DNA from: Polyangiaceae bacterium
Lineage (GTDB): Bacteria; Myxococcota_A; Polyangia; Polyangiales; Polyangiaceae
Direction: 5' to 3'
Assembly (NCBI GenBank): GCA_947475525.1
Contig: CANJMI010000027.1
Coordinates: forward strand, 1 to 50,131
Length of the DNA stretch: 50,131 nt
This document shows positions 34,421 to 48,796 of this stretch, one piece after another (the stretch's first letter is position 1; every line of letters begins with the position of its first letter). Under the pieces are notes generated by a model, which was not told the DNA's origin, did not search any database, and was given only the letters and a program-made list of their open reading frames with translations. Position numbers and translations under genes: made by a program.

Positions 34421-34774
34421 ATGAAGAGCCCGGTCGTTCAAGCCCTCGAAGCCTCCCTCATTCGTAGTGATCTACCCGTCTTTCGCTGCGGCGATACGGT
34501 GAAGGTCAATTACAAGGTCGTCGAAGGCGACAAGACCCGCGTCCAGGTTTTCCAGGGCGTCGTCATCAAGCGTCATCGCGCCGGAGCGCGGTCGACATTC
34601 ACGGTGCGTAAGGTGAGCTTCGGAACCGGCGTCGAGCGCATGTTCCCGCTGAACAGCCCGCGCATCGAGTCGATCGAGATTGCCTCGCGGGGCCTCGTGC
34701 GTCGTTCGCGTCTGTTTTACCTGCGGCAACTGTCGGGTAAGGCTGCTCGCGTTCGCGACGTCAAAGACCGCTGA
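34421..34774 (+). CDS. rplS: 50S ribosomal protein L19
   Basis: A 117-residue protein. FRCGDTVKVNYKVVEGDKTR, VFQGVVIKRH, STFTVRKVSFGTGVERMFP and the C-terminal RRSRLFYLRQLSGKAARV are unmistakable L19, which sits at the 30S-50S interface. GGAG six bases before the ATG is a good ribosome-binding site. In most bacteria rplS ends the operon rpsP-rimM-trmD-rplS; here it stands alone with its own promoter and terminator. The length is typical. Confidence 0.97.
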   Translation: MKSPVVQALEASLIRSDLPVFRCGDTVKVNYKVVEGDKTRVQVFQGVVIKRHRAGARSTFTVRKVSFGTGVERMFPLNSPRIESIEIASRGLVRRSRLFYLRQLSGKAARVRDVKDR

Positions 34775-34782
34775 TCGACCTC

Positions 34783-34801
34783 CGGAGAAGTTGATTCTCC
34801 G
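34783..34801 (+). terminator. First hairpin after rplS
   Basis: CGGAGAA-GTTGA-TTCTCCG is a perfect 7-base-pair stem with a 5-base loop, eight bases after the rplS stop. No U-tract follows, so it probably stabilises the mRNA end or works with the next hairpin. Confidence 0.45.
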
Positions 34802-34810
34802 AAGCGATGA

Positions 34811-34853
34811 GCGCCGGTGCCGGAAGGAATCCTTCGGCGCCGGCTTTCTTTAT
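34811..34853 (+). terminator. Rho-independent terminator of rplS
   Basis: GCCGGTGCCGGAAGG and CCTTCGGCGCCGGC pair into a long GC-rich stem with one bulge and the short loop AAT, followed at once by TTTCTTTATT. This is the clearest intrinsic terminator in the window. Confidence 0.8.
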
Positions 34854-34949
34854 TGATCCGCGCGGGAGCGTCTTGATTATGCTGCTTCCGTACGGTCTCT
34901 GTTGTGGGTGCGCTTTCGATGCCGCCACGTGGGGGCCATCGAGGACGTG

Positions 34950-36188
34950 ATGACCAAGTGTCTGCGTTGCGGTTCCGATAACCTCCCGACCTCGGGCCAG
35001 TGCCAAACGTGCGGCGCCCCGCTGCCCAGCAGCGCTGGTAGGCCCGCGGCCGGGCCGCCAGGCTTTGGACCCCCACCAGGGCCGCCAGGCTTTGGGCCCC
35101 CACCAGGGCCGCCAGGCTTTGGACCCCCACCAGGGCCGCCAGGCTTTGGACCGCCGCCAGGACCGCCAGGCTTCGGACCGCCGCCAGGACCGCCAGGCTT
35201 CGGACCGCCGCCAGGGCCGCCAGGCTTCGGACCGCCGCCAGGACCGCCAGGCTTCGGACCGCCGCCAGGGCCGCCAGGCTTTGGACCGCCGGCAGGGCCG
35301 CCAGGCTTTGGACCGCGACCAGGGCCGCCAGGCTTCGGACCGCCGCCAGGGCCGGCAGGCTTTGGACCGCCGCAAGGCCCGCCAGGCTTTGGACCGCCGC
35401 AAGGGCCGCCAGGCTTTGGACCGCCGCAAGGGCCGCCAGGCTTTGGACCGCCGCAAGGGCCGCCAGGCTTTGGACCGCCGCAAGGGCCACCAGGCTTTGG
35501 ACCGCCGCAAGGGCCACCAGACTTCGGACCGCCGCAAGGGCCGCCAGGCTTCGGACCGCCACCAGGCTTATCGGCCGCCAATCCCGGCTACCCGCCGCCC
35601 CCGGGCGCGCCTGGAGCGGGAGGCGACATGAACGCGCCGTCCCCCGCATTCCCGCAGCCCTCGAACTACGGACCGCCCCCGGGTTTCGGCCAGCCTCAAT
35701 CGGCCCCACGAGAGCCGTACCCGCCCGTGCCCGCCCAGGGTCGTGGGCCCTCGAGCTTCAGCCCGATGAGCCCCGTCCCTAGCGTCGAAGCTCCGCGCAT
35801 CGCCGGAGGGGCCGCAGCCACGGGTCCGCGACCGGATGACGTGGTCGATGCCGAGCCGAAGCGTGTGCTCGGAGGGTTTATCTATTCCTTCCAGGAAGAT
35901 GGCTTCGGGAAACACTGGGTGCTCTACGAAGGCGAGAACCTCGTCGGCCGCGCCGAGACCAACGTGAAATGCGAAGTGCCCGTTGCCCACGGCACGACGT
36001 CGACCCGCCACGCATCGCTGCGCTGCACAAACGGACAAATTACGCTTCAGGACATGAAGTCGACGAACGGCACCTACGTGAACGGTCGTAGGCTCGATCC
36101 CAACGTCCTCACCGCGCTCAATGACGGCGACCAGGTGAGGTTTGGCGGGTTCACGGTGAACCTCATCGTCGCCCGTCGACAACCCTAA
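34950..36188 (+). CDS. Zinc-ribbon / GPPGFGPPx-repeat / FHA-domain protein
   Basis: A 412-residue protein in three parts. Residues 4-21 form a zinc ribbon (C4-LR-C7 and C18-QT-C21). Residues ~35-205 are 19 copies of a nine-residue unit GPPGFGPP(P/Q), then a Pro/Gly linker to ~305. Residues ~310-412 are an FHA domain: GENLVGRAETNVKCEVPVAH, STRHASLRC, and MKSTNGTYVNGRRL. FHA domains bind phosphothreonine peptides, so this should read the output of Ser/Thr kinases. The Pro/Gly/Phe repeat resembles phase-separating or extensible linkers. The ATG at 34950 starts just before the first Cys. It heads a block with PP2C and FHA-ABC genes (gap 39 bases). Confidence 0.82.
   Translation: MTKCLRCGSDNLPTSGQCQTCGAPLPSSAGRPAAGPPGFGPPPGPPGFGPPPGPPGFGPPPGPPGFGPPPGPPGFGPPPGPPGFGPPPGPPGFGPPPGPPGFGPPPGPPGFGPPAGPPGFGPRPGPPGFGPPPGPAGFGPPQGPPGFGPPQGPPGFGPPQGPPGFGPPQGPPGFGPPQGPPGFGPPQGPPDFGPPQGPPGFGPPPGLSAANPGYPPPPGAPGAGGDMNAPSPAFPQPSNYGPPPGFGQPQSAPREPYPPVPAQGRGPSSFSPMSPVPSVEAPRIAGGAAATGPRPDDVVDAEPKRVLGGFIYSFQEDGFGKHWVLYEGENLVGRAETNVKCEVPVAHGTTSTRHASLRCTNGQITLQDMKSTNGTYVNGRRLDPNVLTALNDGDQVRFGGFTVNLIVARRQP
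35052..35564 (+). repeat. 19 tandem copies of a 27-bp coding unit
   Basis: The unit is GGGCCGCCAGGCTTTGGACC plus GCCGCCA, encoding GPPGFGPPP. Units 12-18 end in CAA (Gln) and the others mostly in CCA (Pro), so the array has grown in blocks. It contains no stop in several other frames, which produces long spurious open frames on both strands. Confidence 0.93.
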
Positions 36189-36227: not shown

Positions 36228-37343
36228 GTGCCGCCGAGCGGAATGCAACTCGAGTTCGCAACGGCTACCGATGCGGGCCTCGACCCGCACAAACGCGTCA
36301 ACGAAGACGCTTTTGGCCAGTTGGATTCAGGGGTCGGACATCTGTTCGTCGTCTGCGACGGCATGGGGGGTCACCTCGGCGGCAAGCAAGCAAGCGAGCT
36401 CGCCGTCAAGACGATCGTCGATGGCGTCGGGGCGACAAGTCCAAGTGAGGAACCCGTGCGCGCGCTCGTTGCGGCAATCCAAGAAGCGGCGCTGCGCGTC
36501 TTCGAGCTCGGCGGCCCGGCCCAGAACCCCCAACGCCCGGGCTCGACCTGCGTCTCGATGCTGTTCCGAGCAGGGTATCTCGAAATCGCGCACGTCGGAG
36601 ACAGCCGCGGCTACATGATTCGCGGCAAGCAGATCCAGCGGGTCACCCGCGACCATTCGTTCGTTCAAGAGCTGATCGACAGCGGCCGCCTGACCGAAAA
36701 AGAGGCGATTGGCCACCCCGAGTCGAACAAGATCACGCGCGCACTCGGAATGACGCCGACGGTCCGGGTGGAGACGCGAAATGAACCCCTGGAGCTCTTC
36801 GATGGCGACGTCTTCATCCTCGCGACCGACGGCCTCACCGACCTCGCCCAGAACCAAGACATCCTCGTCACCGCGCTCTCGTACCTCAAATCCGGCGGCC
36901 TTCAGACCGCCTGCAACGAGCTCGTCGCGCTCGCGAACCGTCGCGGCGGCCACGACAACATCACCGTGCAGATGGTTCGGGTCGTACGGACTGGACCAAA
37001 ACTCATCTCCACACACGTCGACGCGCCGCCCGCCGGTAGGGGTCCCGCGTCGGCAACCGTCGTTCAAGGACCACCCGGCCACACCGCACCCGGCGCTCCC
37101 CAATCGGGGGACTCGAACGATGCGCTGTCGCCCGGTCTGCAGGCTGGCCCGTACACGCTCGTCGGTGGGCCCTCCGCCCTTCCCAGCTATGCGGCGCCGC
37201 CATTCGGTGGTCAGCACGGCCCGCCGCAAAACCTCGCACCCGCGCCCGTCGGGCCGAACCCCCTGATGAACCTCGTCGTCGCGATGGCCGCGCTGATCGG
37301 CCTCCTTGTCGCCGCACTGATCTGGGCGCTCAAGCTGCGCTGA
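36228..37343 (+). CDS. PP2C-family Ser/Thr protein phosphatase with C-terminal membrane anchor
   Basis: A 371-residue protein. Residues ~6-255 form a PPM/PP2C phosphatase with the metal-binding motifs VNEDAFG, VVCDGMGGHLGG, HVGDSRGYMI, LATDGLTDL and GGHDNITVQMV, all with their Asp residues. A Pro/Gly/Ala-rich linker follows, ending in one C-terminal membrane helix (LMNLVVAMAALIGLLVAALI), which holds the catalytic domain on the cytoplasmic face. It should reverse Ser/Thr kinase phosphorylation, most likely of the FHA proteins' ligands encoded on either side. The start is GTG 36228; ATG 36243 is a close alternative. No kinase gene is in this window. Confidence 0.9.
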   Translation: MPPSGMQLEFATATDAGLDPHKRVNEDAFGQLDSGVGHLFVVCDGMGGHLGGKQASELAVKTIVDGVGATSPSEEPVRALVAAIQEAALRVFELGGPAQNPQRPGSTCVSMLFRAGYLEIAHVGDSRGYMIRGKQIQRVTRDHSFVQELIDSGRLTEKEAIGHPESNKITRALGMTPTVRVETRNEPLELFDGDVFILATDGLTDLAQNQDILVTALSYLKSGGLQTACNELVALANRRGGHDNITVQMVRVVRTGPKLISTHVDAPPAGRGPASATVVQGPPGHTAPGAPQSGDSNDALSPGLQAGPYTLVGGPSALPSYAAPPFGGQHGPPQNLAPAPVGPNPLMNLVVAMAALIGLLVAALIWALKLR

Positions 37344-37435: not shown

Positions 37436-40400
37436 ATGATCCCAAGCTTCGGAAAACAAACCGTCACCATCGGCAGCCACCCTCAGTGCGACGTCGTGCT
37501 TCAAAGCGCAAACGTGGCTGCGGAGCACGGCAGGCTCGTCAACCAAGGGGGCGGCAAGCTCGTCTTTCTCAACGGCGGGGCAGGTCGCACGTTCGCCGGT
37601 GACCGTGAACTCGCGCCGAACGAAACGGTCAATTTTGATTTCCGACAAGCATTTCGTCTTGGCGACGTCGTCCTTCCGCTCGATCATCCGGCAATCACCG
37701 CGAGCCTGCTGTCGGTTGGCCAGGAGACCGCACAGCCGGGCCGCCTGATCATCGGACGGGATCCCTCGCGGGCCTCGCTGGTGCTTGGCCACTCCAGCGT
37801 ATCGAGCCTCCACTGCACGATCGCGCTGGATCGCATGATGGTGATCGACCACGACTCGACGAGCGGCACGTACGTCAACGGCGCGAGGCTCGTCGGCGGG
37901 CAACCGACCCCGCTACCGCCGCAAGGCTCCATCTTCATCGGACCTGTGCCCGTTCGCATCGACGTCTTGTTGCAGCTTGGTCATGCGCTCGCCGCAGGTG
38001 GAGCGGCGCAACCCTCCGCGGTCGCCCCAGTCGCCCTAGCGGCAGCAACCCCGAAGGTGGACCCCCCGACGGCGCTTGGCGGTGCCGGCAACGCAGGCGC
38101 GGCGATGGGAAAGCACAAGACCGTCTTCGGTCAGCTCGCGTTCACTCCCGGCGGCCCCGCCATTCGAACGATCGGCCGTACCCCCGACAACGACATCGTC
38201 ATCGCGCATGCCCAGGTCTCGAGCCGCCACGCGCAGGTCGAGCAAGCCAACGGTCGCGTGTACGTTACCGATCTCGGAAGCGCCAACGGCACCTACATCA
38301 ACGGCCAACGGCTCACGGCCGGGCAGCGCGTCGAAGTCGCCAACGGCCAGAAAATCTACATCGGGCCGATGCCGGTGCAGCTCCAGGTCGGTGCCGCCGG
38401 CGCGGTCGATGTCGTCAATGAAGGCTACAGCCAAGAGCGCTGGGCTGGCCGACCTCTCTACGAGATCGAAGCCTGGCAGCTCTGCCTCGAGGTCCCCGAT
38501 CGCGACAACAAAGCGAGCATGAAGGTGCTGCTCGATAACGTCTCGTTCAAGGCGCTACCGGGCGATATGATCGCGCTGATGGGACCGAGCGGCGCGGGCA
38601 AAACCACCCTCTTGCTGACCTTGAACGGTTACGTCCCACCGACCCATGGGCTCGTCAGAATCAACGGCGAGGACCTCTATTCGATCTACGATTTGCTGCG
38701 CGGCTCAATCGGCTACGTCCCGCAGGATGACCTCGTGCACTCCGAACTTACGGTCTTCGAGGCCGTCAGATACAGCGCCAAGATGCGGCTGCCGCCGGAC
38801 TACAGCGACGACGAGATACAAAAGCAGGTCAATCAGACGCTGCGCGATCTCGGCCTCGACTCGATCTCGCATCTGGAGATAGGAGCGCCCGAACGGAAGG
38901 TCCTCTCGGGCGGACAGCGAAAACGCGTCAACATCGCACTCGAGCTCGTCACCGACCCGGTCATCCTCTATCTCGATGAGCCCACCTCAGGGCTCGCTTC
39001 CGACGACGCGGCGAGCCTGATCGGTCTGCTGAGCGAGCTCGCGAAAGCGACTGGCAAGACGATCATCATGACGATCCATCAGCCCGCGAAAGAGGAGTAC
39101 GAAAAGTTCACTCACGCGCTCGTCCTCGGCTACGGCGGGGTGCCGATGTTCTTCGGACCGACCCTGCCCGACAGCTATCGTTTCTTCAGTGGCTACGAGC
39201 TGCGAACCCAGGGAAAATACGTAGAGCCGCCCGCGAGCGAGGTCGTCAATAACCCTCGCGACATGTTCGGAAAAATTGCCGAACGTGAAATTCCCATTCA
39301 CAAGCAGCTCCTCGCGCAGAACCCGCTCGCCCCGCGTACAGCCGCGCGAAACCAGGCGGCGAGGCTGTGGCGCGCCGAGTACTTCTCCGACACGAATCCC
39401 ATCTGCAAGGGGATGTATTCAGGAACCCGCTCGATCGGCACCGCCGACGGGCAACGCGGGATCCCCGCATCGCGTCCAAAGACCAGCGGGCAGTTCGGGT
39501 TGCTCTTTTCCCGCTACCTCAAAACGAAATTTCGCGACGTCACCGGTACCGCGATCATGTTCGCGCAGGCCCCTATCATCGGGGTGCTGCTCGCGGTCGT
39601 CTTCGGCGGGCAAACGGAGGCCTCGCCCGCCTGGTGCATCGGCGCGCTGCAAGACATCGCGAAACGCACGGGAAAAACCGGCGGCGGGGACATCTTGAAT
39701 CACTTGACGGCGACGCAAGATCACACCGGCGCCATGTTCTTTTTGGTGGTGAGCTCCGTGTGGTTCGGCACCTCGAACGCGGCGCGTGAAATCGTCCGTG
39801 AGCGCTCGATCTACGTGCGCGAGCGCATGGTGAATCTCGGATTGCTCAACTACGTGATGAGCAAGTTCGTGCTTCTTGCGCTCTTCTGCATCGTCCAGTG
39901 CACGGCGCTCCTCGCGATTGTGTTTTTCACCCTCGGCTTTCACGGCGGGGCCGCGGCCTTCGCCCAGGAGCTCGGCGCGCTCGTCTCGACCGCCGTCGCA
40001 TCGGTAGCAGTCGGCCTGTTGCTATCGACCGTCGTGACCTCGTCCGAGGCCGCCATGGCCCTCACGCCCATCGCCCTCATTCCACAAGTCGTCCTCGGTG
40101 GCTTGATGGTTCCGGCGACCACCATCCCAAAGCTATCGGCGCTGATGTACGTGATCCCCGCGCGCTGGGGCTTCGAGGCCGCGGTGGTCCCCGAGCGCGC
40201 CGCCATCAAGAACGATGCGGCATGGCTGATCAACCTGGGCTCACCCGAGCAGTCCAGCGCCACGGACTTCATCAAAGGAGGCAACTTTGAATGCGCGACC
40301 GCGCAGGTCGCCTCCGACTCGCTGAACGGCGCGTGGTCGTTTACGAATTACGACCAAGCCGTCATCCCGTTCCTCGTGCTCAGCACGATGACCGTGGTGC

Positions 40401-40447
40401 TCCTGGGGGCCGTGCTCGTGCTCTTGCGGCGCCGCGACCAGATGTGA
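37436..40447 (+). CDS. FHA-ABC transporter fusion (Rv1747-like ABCG half-transporter)
   Basis: A 1003-residue protein. Residues ~1-85 look like a reduced FHA fold (IGSHPQCDVVL). A clear FHA follows at ~100-180 (IGRDPSRASLVL, SSLHC, SGTYVNG) and another at ~240-320 (IGRTPDNDIVI, SSRHAQVE, NGTYINGQRL). The ABC domain at ~345-590 has Walker A GPSGAGKTT (383-391), signature LSGGQRKRV (490-498) and Walker B LYLDEPTSGLAS. Residues ~670-1000 are an ABC2-type membrane domain with six helices. It matches mycobacterial Rv1747 in order, where FHA phosphothreonine binding controls export of cell-envelope lipids. It follows the PP2C gene after 92 bases, so the phosphatase may set its activity. Confidence 0.9.
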   Translation: MIPSFGKQTVTIGSHPQCDVVLQSANVAAEHGRLVNQGGGKLVFLNGGAGRTFAGDRELAPNETVNFDFRQAFRLGDVVLPLDHPAITASLLSVGQETAQPGRLIIGRDPSRASLVLGHSSVSSLHCTIALDRMMVIDHDSTSGTYVNGARLVGGQPTPLPPQGSIFIGPVPVRIDVLLQLGHALAAGGAAQPSAVAPVALAAATPKVDPPTALGGAGNAGAAMGKHKTVFGQLAFTPGGPAIRTIGRTPDNDIVIAHAQVSSRHAQVEQANGRVYVTDLGSANGTYINGQRLTAGQRVEVANGQKIYIGPMPVQLQVGAAGAVDVVNEGYSQERWAGRPLYEIEAWQLCLEVPDRDNKASMKVLLDNVSFKALPGDMIALMGPSGAGKTTLLLTLNGYVPPTHGLVRINGEDLYSIYDLLRGSIGYVPQDDLVHSELTVFEAVRYSAKMRLPPDYSDDEIQKQVNQTLRDLGLDSISHLEIGAPERKVLSGGQRKRVNIALELVTDPVILYLDEPTSGLASDDAASLIGLLSELAKATGKTIIMTIHQPAKEEYEKFTHALVLGYGGVPMFFGPTLPDSYRFFSGYELRTQGKYVEPPASEVVNNPRDMFGKIAEREIPIHKQLLAQNPLAPRTAARNQAARLWRAEYFSDTNPICKGMYSGTRSIGTADGQRGIPASRPKTSGQFGLLFSRYLKTKFRDVTGTAIMFAQAPIIGVLLAVVFGGQTEASPAWCIGALQDIAKRTGKTGGGDILNHLTATQDHTGAMFFLVVSSVWFGTSNAAREIVRERSIYVRERMVNLGLLNYVMSKFVLLALFCIVQCTALLAIVFFTLGFHGGAAAFAQELGALVSTAVASVAVGLLLSTVVTSSEAAMALTPIALIPQVVLGGLMVPATTIPKLSALMYVIPARWGFEAAVVPERAAIKNDAAWLINLGSPEQSSATDFIKGGNFECATAQVASDSLNGAWSFTNYDQAVIPFLVLSTMTVVLLGAVLVLLRRRDQM

Positions 40448-45385: not shown

Positions 45386-45659
45386 CGGGCTTAGCGGAGC
45401 TTGTGCCGCTCCGTGATGGCGGCGTCAACGAGGTGCGCCTAGAGTCGCGCCTACAACTCTCACTAGGTGCGCCCGGAAGCGAAGACCAAGAGCACCAGGC
45501 GCGGGAAGATGCGATTGCCCTGACCTCGAGCAGGAGGCCTTGCCTGCCTCGAATTGGGCGACCGAACGCTTTCGGAGCAAGCACGCTGTGCCCTCATTTG
45601 CTAGGGTCCGTGCGCTGTCACGTTGCCTTTGGTCCCGCTTCGCTAGTCGTTGTTTATTT
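45386..45659. other. Divergent intergenic region between two protease lipoprotein genes
   Basis: 274 bases upstream of both the C39-like peptidase and the legumain-domain gene. No open frame with family likeness, no tRNA and no clear repeat were seen. It must contain both promoters; I could not pick out a convincing -35/-10 pair. Confidence 0.5.
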
Positions 45660-47927
45660 ATGAGTTTTTCACTTTCAACCCATCGCCGTCACTACGCCTT
45701 CGCGCGACTTTTCGCGGCCGCTCTCATCGTGAGCGCCTGCGGCGGCGAGGAGGAGAGCCGCGTCCGTCCGTTAGCGTCGGGTGAACCCTTGACGATCGCG
45801 CTCTTGGCGCCGTCCCTACCGAACGACGGCGGCATTCCCGACGCAGGCAAGAGCCCATTCGACTACGCCGTCGCGAAGGTGAACGAAGCCGGCGGGATCG
45901 CGGGGGGACGCCCCGTGAAGCTCGTGCCGTACACGTTCAGCTTGACGGACAACGACTTCGACGCGGTATCCGCCGAGGTCCTCGCGGACCCCAATGTGGT
46001 GGCGACGATCGGGCTCGCCGAGAGCAGCCAACTGATGACGCTCGCGCCATCGTTTATCGGCGCCGAGCGTCTCCTCATCGCCCCGAATGCGACGGCCGAC
46101 GAACTCCTCCGTGCGTTCGGCGGCGGCCAGTATTTTTGGCGGACGAAGCCATCGGACATCGGTCAGGCCGAGCTCCTCGTCACCTACGCGAAGCGGGTTC
46201 ACGCGAAGAAGCTCGGGCTCGTGACGAGCCTCGACACCGGCGGAATGACGTTTTTCACATGGATGGGCTTCTTCGCGACCGAACACGGCTACGACGCGAA
46301 AGACCTCCACATCGAACCGCTCACGGCCGATGCGGACTGCACAGCTCCGATGGCCGCCGTGCTCGCCGACGCCCCCGACGTCGTGTTCGTCGGCGCCGCC
46401 CAAGAGGTCGCCGGCAACTGCATCATTCACGCGTGGGCCGATTATCGGAAGGCGAACCCCACGAAGAACCCGCGCCTCGTCTTTGCCGACGCCGGCTACG
46501 ACTACACGCAGTACGGCATGAGCGCAGGACAGGATGCCGAAGGCCTCGAAGGCTTCGCGACCGTCGGACCGCTCGGCAACACCTTCGACGAGGACTACGC
46601 CGCATGGGCGGGCAAGGCCGGGTCGGGCAAGGCCGGGTCGGGCCCGAACGGCCGCAGTTCGCACGACGCGGTGCTCCTGCTCGCATACGGCCTCGACCGC
46701 ACGAACGGCGTCGGTGGCGCAGCCCTCGACAACGCGCTCCGCGAGCTGGTCGACACGCGCGGAACGAAGGTGGACGCGAGCGTCAGCGGGATCGCCGCGG
46801 GACTCAACGCGATCGAAGCGGGCGCACTCCCCGACATCACCGGAGAGACGGGCGAGCTCGAGTACTTGTCTGGGCTCTACGTCGATCCGGCGAACGCTCA
46901 TTACGGCCGTTGGAGCTACGAGTACGGGGGCTACATCGCGAAAGAGACTTACTGGACCGGCGAACCCGGGTTTCTATCCGCAGCCAAAGCGCTCGCGTTC
47001 CCGAGCGACGCGACGCTCGCGGCCCCGAATCTGAAGCCAGGCTTCACGCCTGCGAAACCACAATCGGACACGTGGGCGCTGGTGATGAGCTTCTCGGGAG
47101 GCTGGGAAAACTACCGGCACCAAGCCGATGGGCTGCGCCAATTCCAAGCGCTGCTCGCACTTGGGATCCCGCGTGACCACATCGTGCTCATCGGCGCCGA
47201 CGACCTCGCGACGTCTCCGAACAACACGCTGCCAGGCCAAGTGCGCAACCAAGCCAACGGGCCCAACATTTACGCAAACGTCACGTACGATTACACGCTG
47301 AACGACGTGACGGCGGCCGACGTCCTCAACATCTTGAAGGGGCAGAAGACCGCAACGACACCGACGGTGCTTGGGTCGACCGACGCCTCCAACGTCTACG
47401 TCTTCTTCAGCGGTCATGGCGGCACCAGCGGCATGCCCGTCGGCGCAGGCTCGGTCTCCGAAGGCTTGGCAGGAGGCACCATGACCACCCTCAGCCCTGC
47501 GGACTTTCGCGAGACGCTCTGCACGATGCAGGACGAAAAGCGGTACCGGCGCGTGCTCGTCGCCATCGAGGCATGTTACAGCGGCGCGTTTGGGAGCGTC
47601 TTCAATGGCGGGCTGCTGCTCGGTTGCAACGGCGACGGCGTAACGCCAGGCGATCCGTTGCTCGGCGTGATGCTCATGACCGCCGCGAACACGGTCGAGT
47701 CGTCGTACGCGGCGCAGTACGATAAGACGCTGAAGGCTTGGGTCGCTGACCAGTTCGCGGATCGCCTCGCCATGACGCTCTTCGAGGGCGGTGGAACGAG
47801 CGTCCCCGCCTACGACCTGTTCAAGTCGATAGCCAGCACGGTGTCCGGCGCGCACGTCTCGCTCTACAACGAGGGCGCCTACGGCAACGCCACCCAAGAC
47901 ACGTTCGCCGAGATCTTCAAGCCGTGA
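45660..47927 (+). CDS. Lipoprotein: periplasmic ligand-binding domain fused to a legumain-like (C13) protease
   Basis: A 755-residue exported lipoprotein with lipobox IVSACGG (C27). Residues ~43-430 are a type-1 periplasmic-binding fold of the branched-chain amino-acid receptor kind (LTIALLAPSLPNDGG, VLADPNVVATIGLAESSQLM, KKLGLVTSLDTGGMTF, VVFVGAAQEVAGNC). Residues ~470-740 match eukaryotic legumain: GGWENYRHQADGL (482-490 core), LPGQVRNQANGPNIYANV, NDVTAADVLNILKG, FFSGHGG with H586, IEACYSG with C639, and MTAANTVESSYAAQYD. The His-Gly then Glu-Ala-Cys order gives the clan CD dyad. Legumains cut after Asn or Asp. I infer a ligand-gated extracytoplasmic protease. The ATG at 45660 starts the signal peptide. 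Confidence 0.88.
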   Translation: MSFSLSTHRRHYAFARLFAAALIVSACGGEEESRVRPLASGEPLTIALLAPSLPNDGGIPDAGKSPFDYAVAKVNEAGGIAGGRPVKLVPYTFSLTDNDFDAVSAEVLADPNVVATIGLAESSQLMTLAPSFIGAERLLIAPNATADELLRAFGGGQYFWRTKPSDIGQAELLVTYAKRVHAKKLGLVTSLDTGGMTFFTWMGFFATEHGYDAKDLHIEPLTADADCTAPMAAVLADAPDVVFVGAAQEVAGNCIIHAWADYRKANPTKNPRLVFADAGYDYTQYGMSAGQDAEGLEGFATVGPLGNTFDEDYAAWAGKAGSGKAGSGPNGRSSHDAVLLLAYGLDRTNGVGGAALDNALRELVDTRGTKVDASVSGIAAGLNAIEAGALPDITGETGELEYLSGLYVDPANAHYGRWSYEYGGYIAKETYWTGEPGFLSAAKALAFPSDATLAAPNLKPGFTPAKPQSDTWALVMSFSGGWENYRHQADGLRQFQALLALGIPRDHIVLIGADDLATSPNNTLPGQVRNQANGPNIYANVTYDYTLNDVTAADVLNILKGQKTATTPTVLGSTDASNVYVFFSGHGGTSGMPVGAGSVSEGLAGGTMTTLSPADFRETLCTMQDEKRYRRVLVAIEACYSGAFGSVFNGGLLLGCNGDGVTPGDPLLGVMLMTAANTVESSYAAQYDKTLKAWVADQFADRLAMTLFEGGGTSVPAYDLFKSIASTVSGAHVSLYNEGAYGNATQDTFAEIFKP

Positions 47928-48796
47928 TGCACCCCACCATGCGAAGCAACCCTTGTACCGCAATCCGTCGGGCGACCGCGTTGGCCGCTCTGGTTTGGGG
48001 AGCCGCGAGGTGCGCATCGAAGGATGCAGGCACACCCGAGCCGCCCCCGCCTCCGCTGTGTCAATCCGTCAAGCGAACGTGCGCCGAGGTAAAAGGCTAC
48101 GCATGGAGCAAGGCGGTCACCGTAGAGTGCAACGACGCCGACGAGCTCTTCACCGTGCGCGCGAGCGGACTCCCGCCGGAGAAAGCGGACGTGACGATGC
48201 CCAAGCTCGAGGCACAAGATTGGGAGTTCCTCGTGCCGCTCTCGCCGCGCTGCGCCACCGCTCGTGAGAAGCTCGAAGGACGCAACGTGCCCCAAGGCTT
48301 GATGTTGAACGGCGTCGGTTTTTTCACGCCTTTCGACACCAACGGCGACGACCTCGTGAAGAACGCAATGGGGCTCGACGAGTGTCAGGGGATGCCGGGA
48401 GTCGGCTGCACCTACCAGTACCGCTCGCTCTCGCCCTGCATCTTCGGAGCCAGCGACGACGTCGCGAAACACCTAGAAAAAGATGGCCACGGCGCGCGGG
48501 TCGGGCTTGCGCTCGACGGCTTCGAGCTCTTCGCGACCCCAACGATTGCCGGCGAGCCGCCGCTCGACGCGTGCCACGGACACGAGACCGCGACGCGCGG
48601 CTATCACTACCATGCGTCAGCCGACGCCCCGTATCTGATGAGCTGTTTCGTCGGCGCGACGCGCGGCGACCTTCGCTACACGGCCACGTTGCCGGAGGAG
48701 TGCCTGCAAGGTTCGTCCGGCCCGAGCATGAGCATGGGGTCCGGGCCGCCGGAAATGAGTGGAACGGGCGGAATGGGCGGAATGGGCGGGCAGTGA
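47927..48796 (+). CDS. YHYH-domain protein, probable lipoprotein
   Basis: A 289-residue exported protein with a possible lipobox AARC and a Pro-rich linker (PEPPPPPLC). The body includes VPQGLMLNGVGFFTPFDTNG, LDACHGHETATRGYHYHASA and APYLMSCFVG. The GYHYH segment with a preceding CHGH is the signature of the YHYH domain, found in secreted bacterial proteins and thought to bind copper or another metal through its histidines. The tail is Met/Gly/Ser-rich (SMSMGSGPPEMSGTGGMGGM), also consistent with copper binding. It starts in TGATG overlap with the legumain gene, so the two are co-translated. ATG 47939 is an alternative start. Confidence 0.72.
   Translation: MHPTMRSNPCTAIRRATALAALVWGAARCASKDAGTPEPPPPPLCQSVKRTCAEVKGYAWSKAVTVECNDADELFTVRASGLPPEKADVTMPKLEAQDWEFLVPLSPRCATAREKLEGRNVPQGLMLNGVGFFTPFDTNGDDLVKNAMGLDECQGMPGVGCTYQYRSLSPCIFGASDDVAKHLEKDGHGARVGLALDGFELFATPTIAGEPPLDACHGHETATRGYHYHASADAPYLMSCFVGATRGDLRYTATLPEECLQGSSGPSMSMGSGPPEMSGTGGMGGMGGQ

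Follow-up and report, generated by a model that had tools for sequence, protein, structure and literature searches.

Does a single bacterial protein combine a receptor for a small ligand with a legumain-type protease, and would the one control the other? The question arises at a gene, P0001, in a 50,131-nucleotide stretch of a Polyangiaceae contig (CANJMI010000027.1), hereafter called the window. A preliminary description had claimed, from the letters of the DNA, that a receptor fold and a eukaryote-like legumain protease are fused here in one lipoprotein, with ligand binding perhaps controlling proteolysis. The claimed architecture is borne out: the frame runs from an ATG to a TGA at 47925–47927 with zero internal stops, and it carries a lipobox, a Pfam C13 match and a fold match to the receptor LivK (Table 1).

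Table 1. Positions in the window of the fusion gene, its parts and the gene that follows it.
Feature	Position	Strand	Basis or remark
PBP-C13 fusion gene P0001	45660..47927	+	one open frame, 755 aa lipoprotein
Signal peptide and lipobox VSAC	45660..45740	+	sequence; Cys27 at 45738-45740
Type I periplasmic binding protein (PBP) half, residues 43-438	45786..46973	+	LivK 3td9, Z 34.0; profile search
Linker, residues 439-467	46974..47060	+	model confidence low at 441-460, block means 65 and 73
Peptidase_C13/legumain half, residues 468-755	47061..47924	+	7fqk_A, Z 35.9; Pfam
NYRHQAD: Asn484, S1-pocket Arg486, His487	47109..47129	+	N, R and H in 22/22 fused frames
Catalytic His586	47415..47417	+	22/22 fused frames
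Catalytic Cys639	47574..47576	+	21/22 fused frames
Ser682, equivalent of S1-pocket Ser216	47703..47705	+	22/22 fused frames
Asp697, equivalent of S1-pocket Asp231	47748..47750	+	21/22 fused frames; Asn in L040
YHYH protein (PF14240)	47927..48796	+	Pfam E 7.7e-11; start codon overlaps fusion stop

The C-terminal half of P0001 belongs to peptidase family C13, whose members are found in most kingdoms (PMC4357240, section 12). PF01650 matched residues 471–739 (E = 9.5e-41; 140.5 bits against a cut-off of 22.8), and the best PDB sequence matches were animal legumains (top E = 4.1e-27). The term "eukaryote-like" is correct as a statement of similarity. Residues 468–755 of the predicted model superimposed on human legumain over 257 of 263 residues at 1.6 Å, with 32% identity, and all of the legumain motifs named earlier are present in this half. 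The zwitterionic S1 pocket of legumain is formed by Arg44, His45, Ser216, and Asp231, as described in section 12 of PMC4357240; in an alignment to animal legumain these residues correspond to R486, H487, S682, and D697. Among the 22 fused frames described below, the catalytic His and Cys and the residues of the Asn/Asp pocket are retained in 21 or 22, and E637 is kept in 21, with Asp instead in L070. Judged by these residues, the C13 half would cleave after Asn. The frame that lacks the catalytic Cys is one of three fusion paralogues in genome G044 (L047 220-2160), where an internal deletion takes out the Cys region and leaves the remainder in frame; the two further copies have the Cys. L047 is either an inactive receptor or an assembly error.

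The C13 fold also includes enzymes that join rather than cut, and P0001 could be a transamidase or ligase like GPI8 or the plant ligases, joining exported proteins while the PBP half binds the nucleophile. Both enzymes share the fold family and match the model (GPI8 8imx_K, Z 34.1; plant asparaginyl ligase 6idv_A, Z 33.1), but at 25% and 22% identity, respectively, they lie farther from P0001 than human legumain does, and with animal legumain as the closest match we consider this alternative very unlikely.

What distinguishes P0001 from animal legumain is what surrounds the protease. It ends at the position corresponding to residue 286 of human legumain, and structural alignment to the human enzyme showed that the activation peptide and the LSAM domain are absent. 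Legumain is a pH-activated protease kept in check by a C-terminal prodomain; according to section 12 of PMC4357240, its C domain is instrumental for zymogen control, expression without the C domain is impossible, and legumain without LSAM is markedly unstable. P0001 carries instead an N-terminal receptor and is a bacterial lipoprotein, while sharing with animal legumain the fold, the catalytic His and Cys, the NYRHQAD motif, and the S1 pocket.

The receptor half is weakly recognizable in the sequence of P0001 itself. Pfam returned only ANF_receptor for the N-terminal half (E = 0.0098, under the cut-off), a PDB sequence search gave weak matches to extracellular ligand-binding receptors (E = 0.003–0.007), and NCBIfam gave a single weak match to P0001, far under its cut-off. 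The claim of a receptor fold was nevertheless substantiated. A profile built from 18 PBP halves retrieved solved receptors of the LIV/HAAT type (4mlc, E = 1.8e-29; 3td9, E = 6.6e-21; 4gnr, E = 6.7e-18), and model residues 43–438 superimposed on Thermotoga maritima LivK (3td9) over 331 residues at 2.6 Å. At E ≤0.01, Peripla_BP_6 (PF13458) was matched in 18 of the 22 fused frames (15/19 in a first set and 3/3 in frames added later) and PF01650 in all 22 (19/19 and 3/3).

Several positions of the ligand site appear conserved in the alignment of fused frames: Asp166 in 21/21, Thr145 in 18/21, and Asp277 in 21/22, the last being an acidic position that shifts by one column in some alignments. Thr145 and Asp277 align with the Thr and the acidic residue through which proteins of the LIV/HAAT family bind amino acids, and since both positions are largely kept, our guess is that the ligand would be an amino acid or a like carboxylate. 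P0001 resembles the LIV/HAAT solute-binding proteins (LivK 3td9, 4mlc, LivJ 4gnr) in its type I PBP fold and in several ligand-site positions, but differs from them in being fused to a protease and in that its own contig carries no match to the permease family PF02653.

The predicted structure, built from 19 family members, recovered both folds with a mean pLDDT of 88.2 and a pTM of 0.88, and the model of a distant member, L069 (699 aa), scored similarly (pLDDT 91.0, pTM 0.89). Both halves match solved structures over almost their full length. For a chain of two domains, pTM values this high, the sole sign of fixed packing, suggest a defined arrangement. The same values favor a second reading, in which the PBP half replaces the prodomain without any ligand, just stabilizing the legumain fold or holding it latent until cleavage as the eukaryotic LSAM does; the absence of LSAM from P0001 and the instability of legumain without it, reported in the part of PMC4357240 cited above, would also fit. 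This reading does not account for the conserved ligand-site residues, however, and inspection of the linker by eye in a 19-frame alignment found no conserved Asn cleavage site. We judge it improbable.

The location of P0001 is indicated by its N-terminus, where a signal peptide is followed by a lipobox Cys. A Cys after a hydrophobic stretch occurs in 20 of the 21 fused frames having an N-terminal region, and a strict lipobox in 10 of the 21. Because of this export signal and lipobox, P0001 would be anchored in a membrane outside the cytoplasm, facing the periplasm or the surface. In each of two Cys pairs the partners always occur or lack together: residues 227/254 in the PBP half are both Cys in 19 frames and neither in 3, and residues 621/656 in the C13 half are both Cys in 12 and neither in 10, as raw counts over 22 related frames uncorrected for kinship. 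This pattern is as expected for disulfides of an exported protein and would fit an oxidizing compartment.

The 22 fused frames come from 17 genomes of the phylum, presumably Myxococcota, where NCBI places the Polyangiaceae (19 from 14 genomes, with three more genomes added to reach 17), and include three each in G044 and G294 and two in G333. L043 and L046 among them are cut N-terminally by a contig end. A frameshift or join between the halves, and an absence of the fusion from related genomes, had both been raised earlier as grounds on which the description would fall, and both were looked for: no frameshift or join was found in what is a single frame, repeated as a fusion across these genomes, and of the 98 genomes of the family, 8 (counting that of the window) have a relative of P0001, which in G074 lacks its N-terminus at a contig end. 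The distribution is patchy. PF01650 was matched at E 1e-5 in 21 of 377 genomes of the phylum, 12 of which have the fused type, and at E 1e-10 in 17 of 317 genomes of the class, 13 of them with the fused type; at E 1e-15 it was matched in 2 of 57 genomes of the class of G294 and 1 of 52 of the class of G126, all three fused. G005, a 99% complete genome of the window's genus, gave no match to P0001, though relatives of the flanking sequence are present. Outside the phylum, the search covered a scan of genome contigs with six short patterns, a plasmid collection, and 14 control genomes. The scan found one relative, from the same genus as the window, and Caulobacter gave one PF01650 match. P0001 had no match in the plasmid collection, and we rejected its being a plasmid gene; an assignment as a defence protein was likewise rejected, as PADLOC gave no match for P0001 and three neighbours.

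One of these eight family genomes, G051, which is of the window's genus, shows the PBP part alone (residues 1–287) at a contig end and stands outside the count of fusions seen. Window positions 45419–46520 are 98.9% identical in DNA to positions 1–1102 of this locus (L057, G051:C481) over 1102 bases, with a sharp end at 45419; other stretches shared with G051 are ∼70–78% identical, save one 51-base match at 98%. The near-identical copy reflects either a recent gene transfer between species or a mis-binned contig.

To compare the histories of the two halves, we used separate PBP and C13 trees of 20 taxa, leaving out L043 (partial) and L047 (deletion). Eight of 17 splits are common to both trees, including one deep split with a support of 0.998 in each; the other nine differ, with no conflict at support ≥0.9. 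A mirror-tree comparison gave r = 0.78, a value reached by 0 of 2000 permutations. The lack of strongly supported conflict indicates that the fusion is old and has been inherited as a unit. Ratios of dN/dS were 0.17, 0.22, and 0.18 in three pairs and 0.34 between the window and L040, a pair almost saturated at synonymous sites; on these ratios both halves are under purifying selection. Three of these four pairs had a higher dN in the PBP half than in the C13 half. This difference, together with the loss of Thr145 in 3 of 21 frames, means that the ligand may vary across members or be absent.

These data also bear on whether two genes were joined by assembly or binning, a concern that a multi-contig assembly (59 contigs) invites. 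The same fusion lies on other contigs in 16 other genomes, the trees of the halves are largely congruent, and both halves appear to be under purifying selection; a join or frameshift is thereby ruled out, and the chance that the fusion is an artefact is negligible. We conclude that the PBP-C13 fusion is a real and conserved architecture, new within a known peptidase family.

C13 proteins without the receptor provide a reference for the fused ones. We identified 14 such frames in 13 genomes of the phylum (L023–L025, L027–L032, L036, L065–L068), all of which match PF01650 and none of which has a Pfam match to a PBP, four of them (L065–L068) being cut at the 5′ end. Against human legumain they scored 25–45 bits, versus 62–152 bits for 21 fused C13 halves (L047 was left out of this scoring). 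Thus, in our sample, a C13 domain near to animal legumain occurs only with the receptor. Some unfused frames have unusual architectures of their own: L028, L030, L031, and L036 carry PDZ domains, L028, L031, and L036 end in a thioredoxin/AhpC-like domain, and a frame at L027 28-1944 combines four PSD/PSCyt domains (PF07626, PF07637, PF07631, PF07627) with a C-terminal C13 match.

The reverse search, with the PBP half as the query against eight genomes, returned 22 rows, of which 12 were strong (E ≤3e-126) and corresponded to the C13 fusions; the remaining 10 had E values of 2e-33 or weaker, and the eight of these that we fetched match Peripla_BP_6 or ANF_receptor, with no C13 match in any of the eight. 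Six protease-free PBP proteins (L105, L103, L098, L093, L099, L104) have a Cys-rich stretch ahead of the PBP domain (L105 and L099 match Dickkopf_N or EB weakly) and perhaps form a group of non-transport receptors.

The surroundings of the fusion gene differ between lineages. In the window, the fusion stop and the start of a YHYH gene overlap in the sequence TGATG (47925–47929), and the YHYH protein is likely a co-translated partner; proteins of this kind are predicted to be zinc-binding hydrolases, as stated in PMC7824862. A YHYH relative lies 3′ of the fusion in L040, L041, L042, and L043, and the two frames overlap in the window and in L041, L042, and L043; in L040 the match is interrupted by a single in-frame stop. 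A search of all fusion loci but L069–L071 found no YHYH relative at the others. Ten of the 98 family genomes have a YHYH relative; the best five adjoin a fusion, and the sixth-best belongs to a genome (G007) that has no match to the fusion. Elsewhere a Bmp/PnrA-like receptor gene lies upstream (L044, L047, L048), and the fusion also has a trypsin-like gene near it in L040, an S41 protease in L046, and a TonB receptor in L050. No Liv permease was found among the 29 neighbours searched; PF02653, the Liv-type permease family, has four matches in the genome, all on contigs other than the window's, and a distant permease could serve P0001 as an ABC-transport partner.

Other features of these regions were also noted. 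Two genomes share a lipoprotein-like gene close to the fusion (L041 4051-5106 and, on the reverse strand, L057); its L041 copy has no Pfam match. The gene that overlaps the start of the G507 fusion (L069 6774-8834) has a GON domain, known from animal ADAMTS proteases. The window itself contains a strongly repetitive open stretch at 34717–35562, whose minus strand encodes VQSLAALAA repeats and which adjoins a gene at 34421 that is presumably ribosomal protein L19, and a PP2C phosphatase gene (36228–37343) followed by an ABC transporter with three FHA matches (37436–40447).

The variety of neighbours is what would be expected if the PBP fold were a docking device, tethering an always-on protease to its substrates or partners (the YHYH protein, the Bmp receptor, or outer-membrane proteins), and the higher dN of the PBP half points the same way. 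A pure scaffold would not need the several ligand-site positions that are conserved, and we regard constitutive proteolysis with a docking half as unlikely, though less so than a ligand-free stand-in for the prodomain.

The reading that we prefer, while giving it slightly less than an even chance, is that P0001 is an extracytoplasmic receptor-protease in which a ligand-responsive receptor half would stand in place of the prodomain. The legumain-type cysteine endopeptidase half would cut after Asn (or after Asp at low pH), and the receptor half, packed on the protease in a fixed arrangement, would take over the role of LSAM and the activation peptide. The receptor, by opening and closing around a small molecule that is probably an amino acid or a related carboxylate, would then alter access to the active site or present the substrate. 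We propose that the receptor stabilizes or controls the protease because LSAM is absent from P0001 and because of the role ascribed to the legumain C domain in section 12 of PMC4357240. From sequence and model, then, we infer an active, extracytoplasmic, Asn-specific protease in defined packing with a receptor for an amino-acid-like ligand, which would exert control over it, and such a mechanism is plausible. Counting against it are the missing catalytic Cys of L047, the pocket Asn of L040, the strict lipobox in only 10 of 21 frames, the higher dN of the PBP half in three pairs, the occasional loss of Thr145, the patchy spread with no match in G005, and the varied neighbours. The more specific proposal, that P0001 is a one-protein ligand-gated legumain in which an amino-acid-type receptor takes the place of the eukaryotic prodomain and, on binding a small molecule, turns an extracytoplasmic Asn-specific protease on or off, we hold a shade more tentatively.

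A protease under the control of a small ligand has a parallel in the MARTX CPD, whose ligand site is part of the protease domain, unlike P0001 with its separate fused receptor domain. The CPD (family C80) belongs to the same clan, CD, and is listed as activated by ligand binding in Table 2 of PMC4357240; what the two would have in common is regulation by a small ligand. The unfused C13 proteins of the phylum share PF01650 with P0001 but differ in their lower legumain scores, in having no PBP, and, in some, in their PDZ and thioredoxin-like domains. Among the matches listed for titles and abstract beginnings in the open-licence literature, we found no PBP-C13 fusion or bacterial legumain receptor; domain databases may list the combination automatically. 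C13 peptidases and PBP receptors are each known and common, and it is their combination that appears new. If the proposed mechanism is true, P0001 and its relatives would represent a second, possibly ligand-controlled way of regulating legumain, one that dispenses with a C-terminal prodomain. They would then offer a tractable model for the restraint of C13 enzymes and a natural design for a protease controlled by a small molecule, and the fused frames are a bacterial set of legumain-type sequences with which the origin of eukaryotic legumain and GPI8 can be tested.
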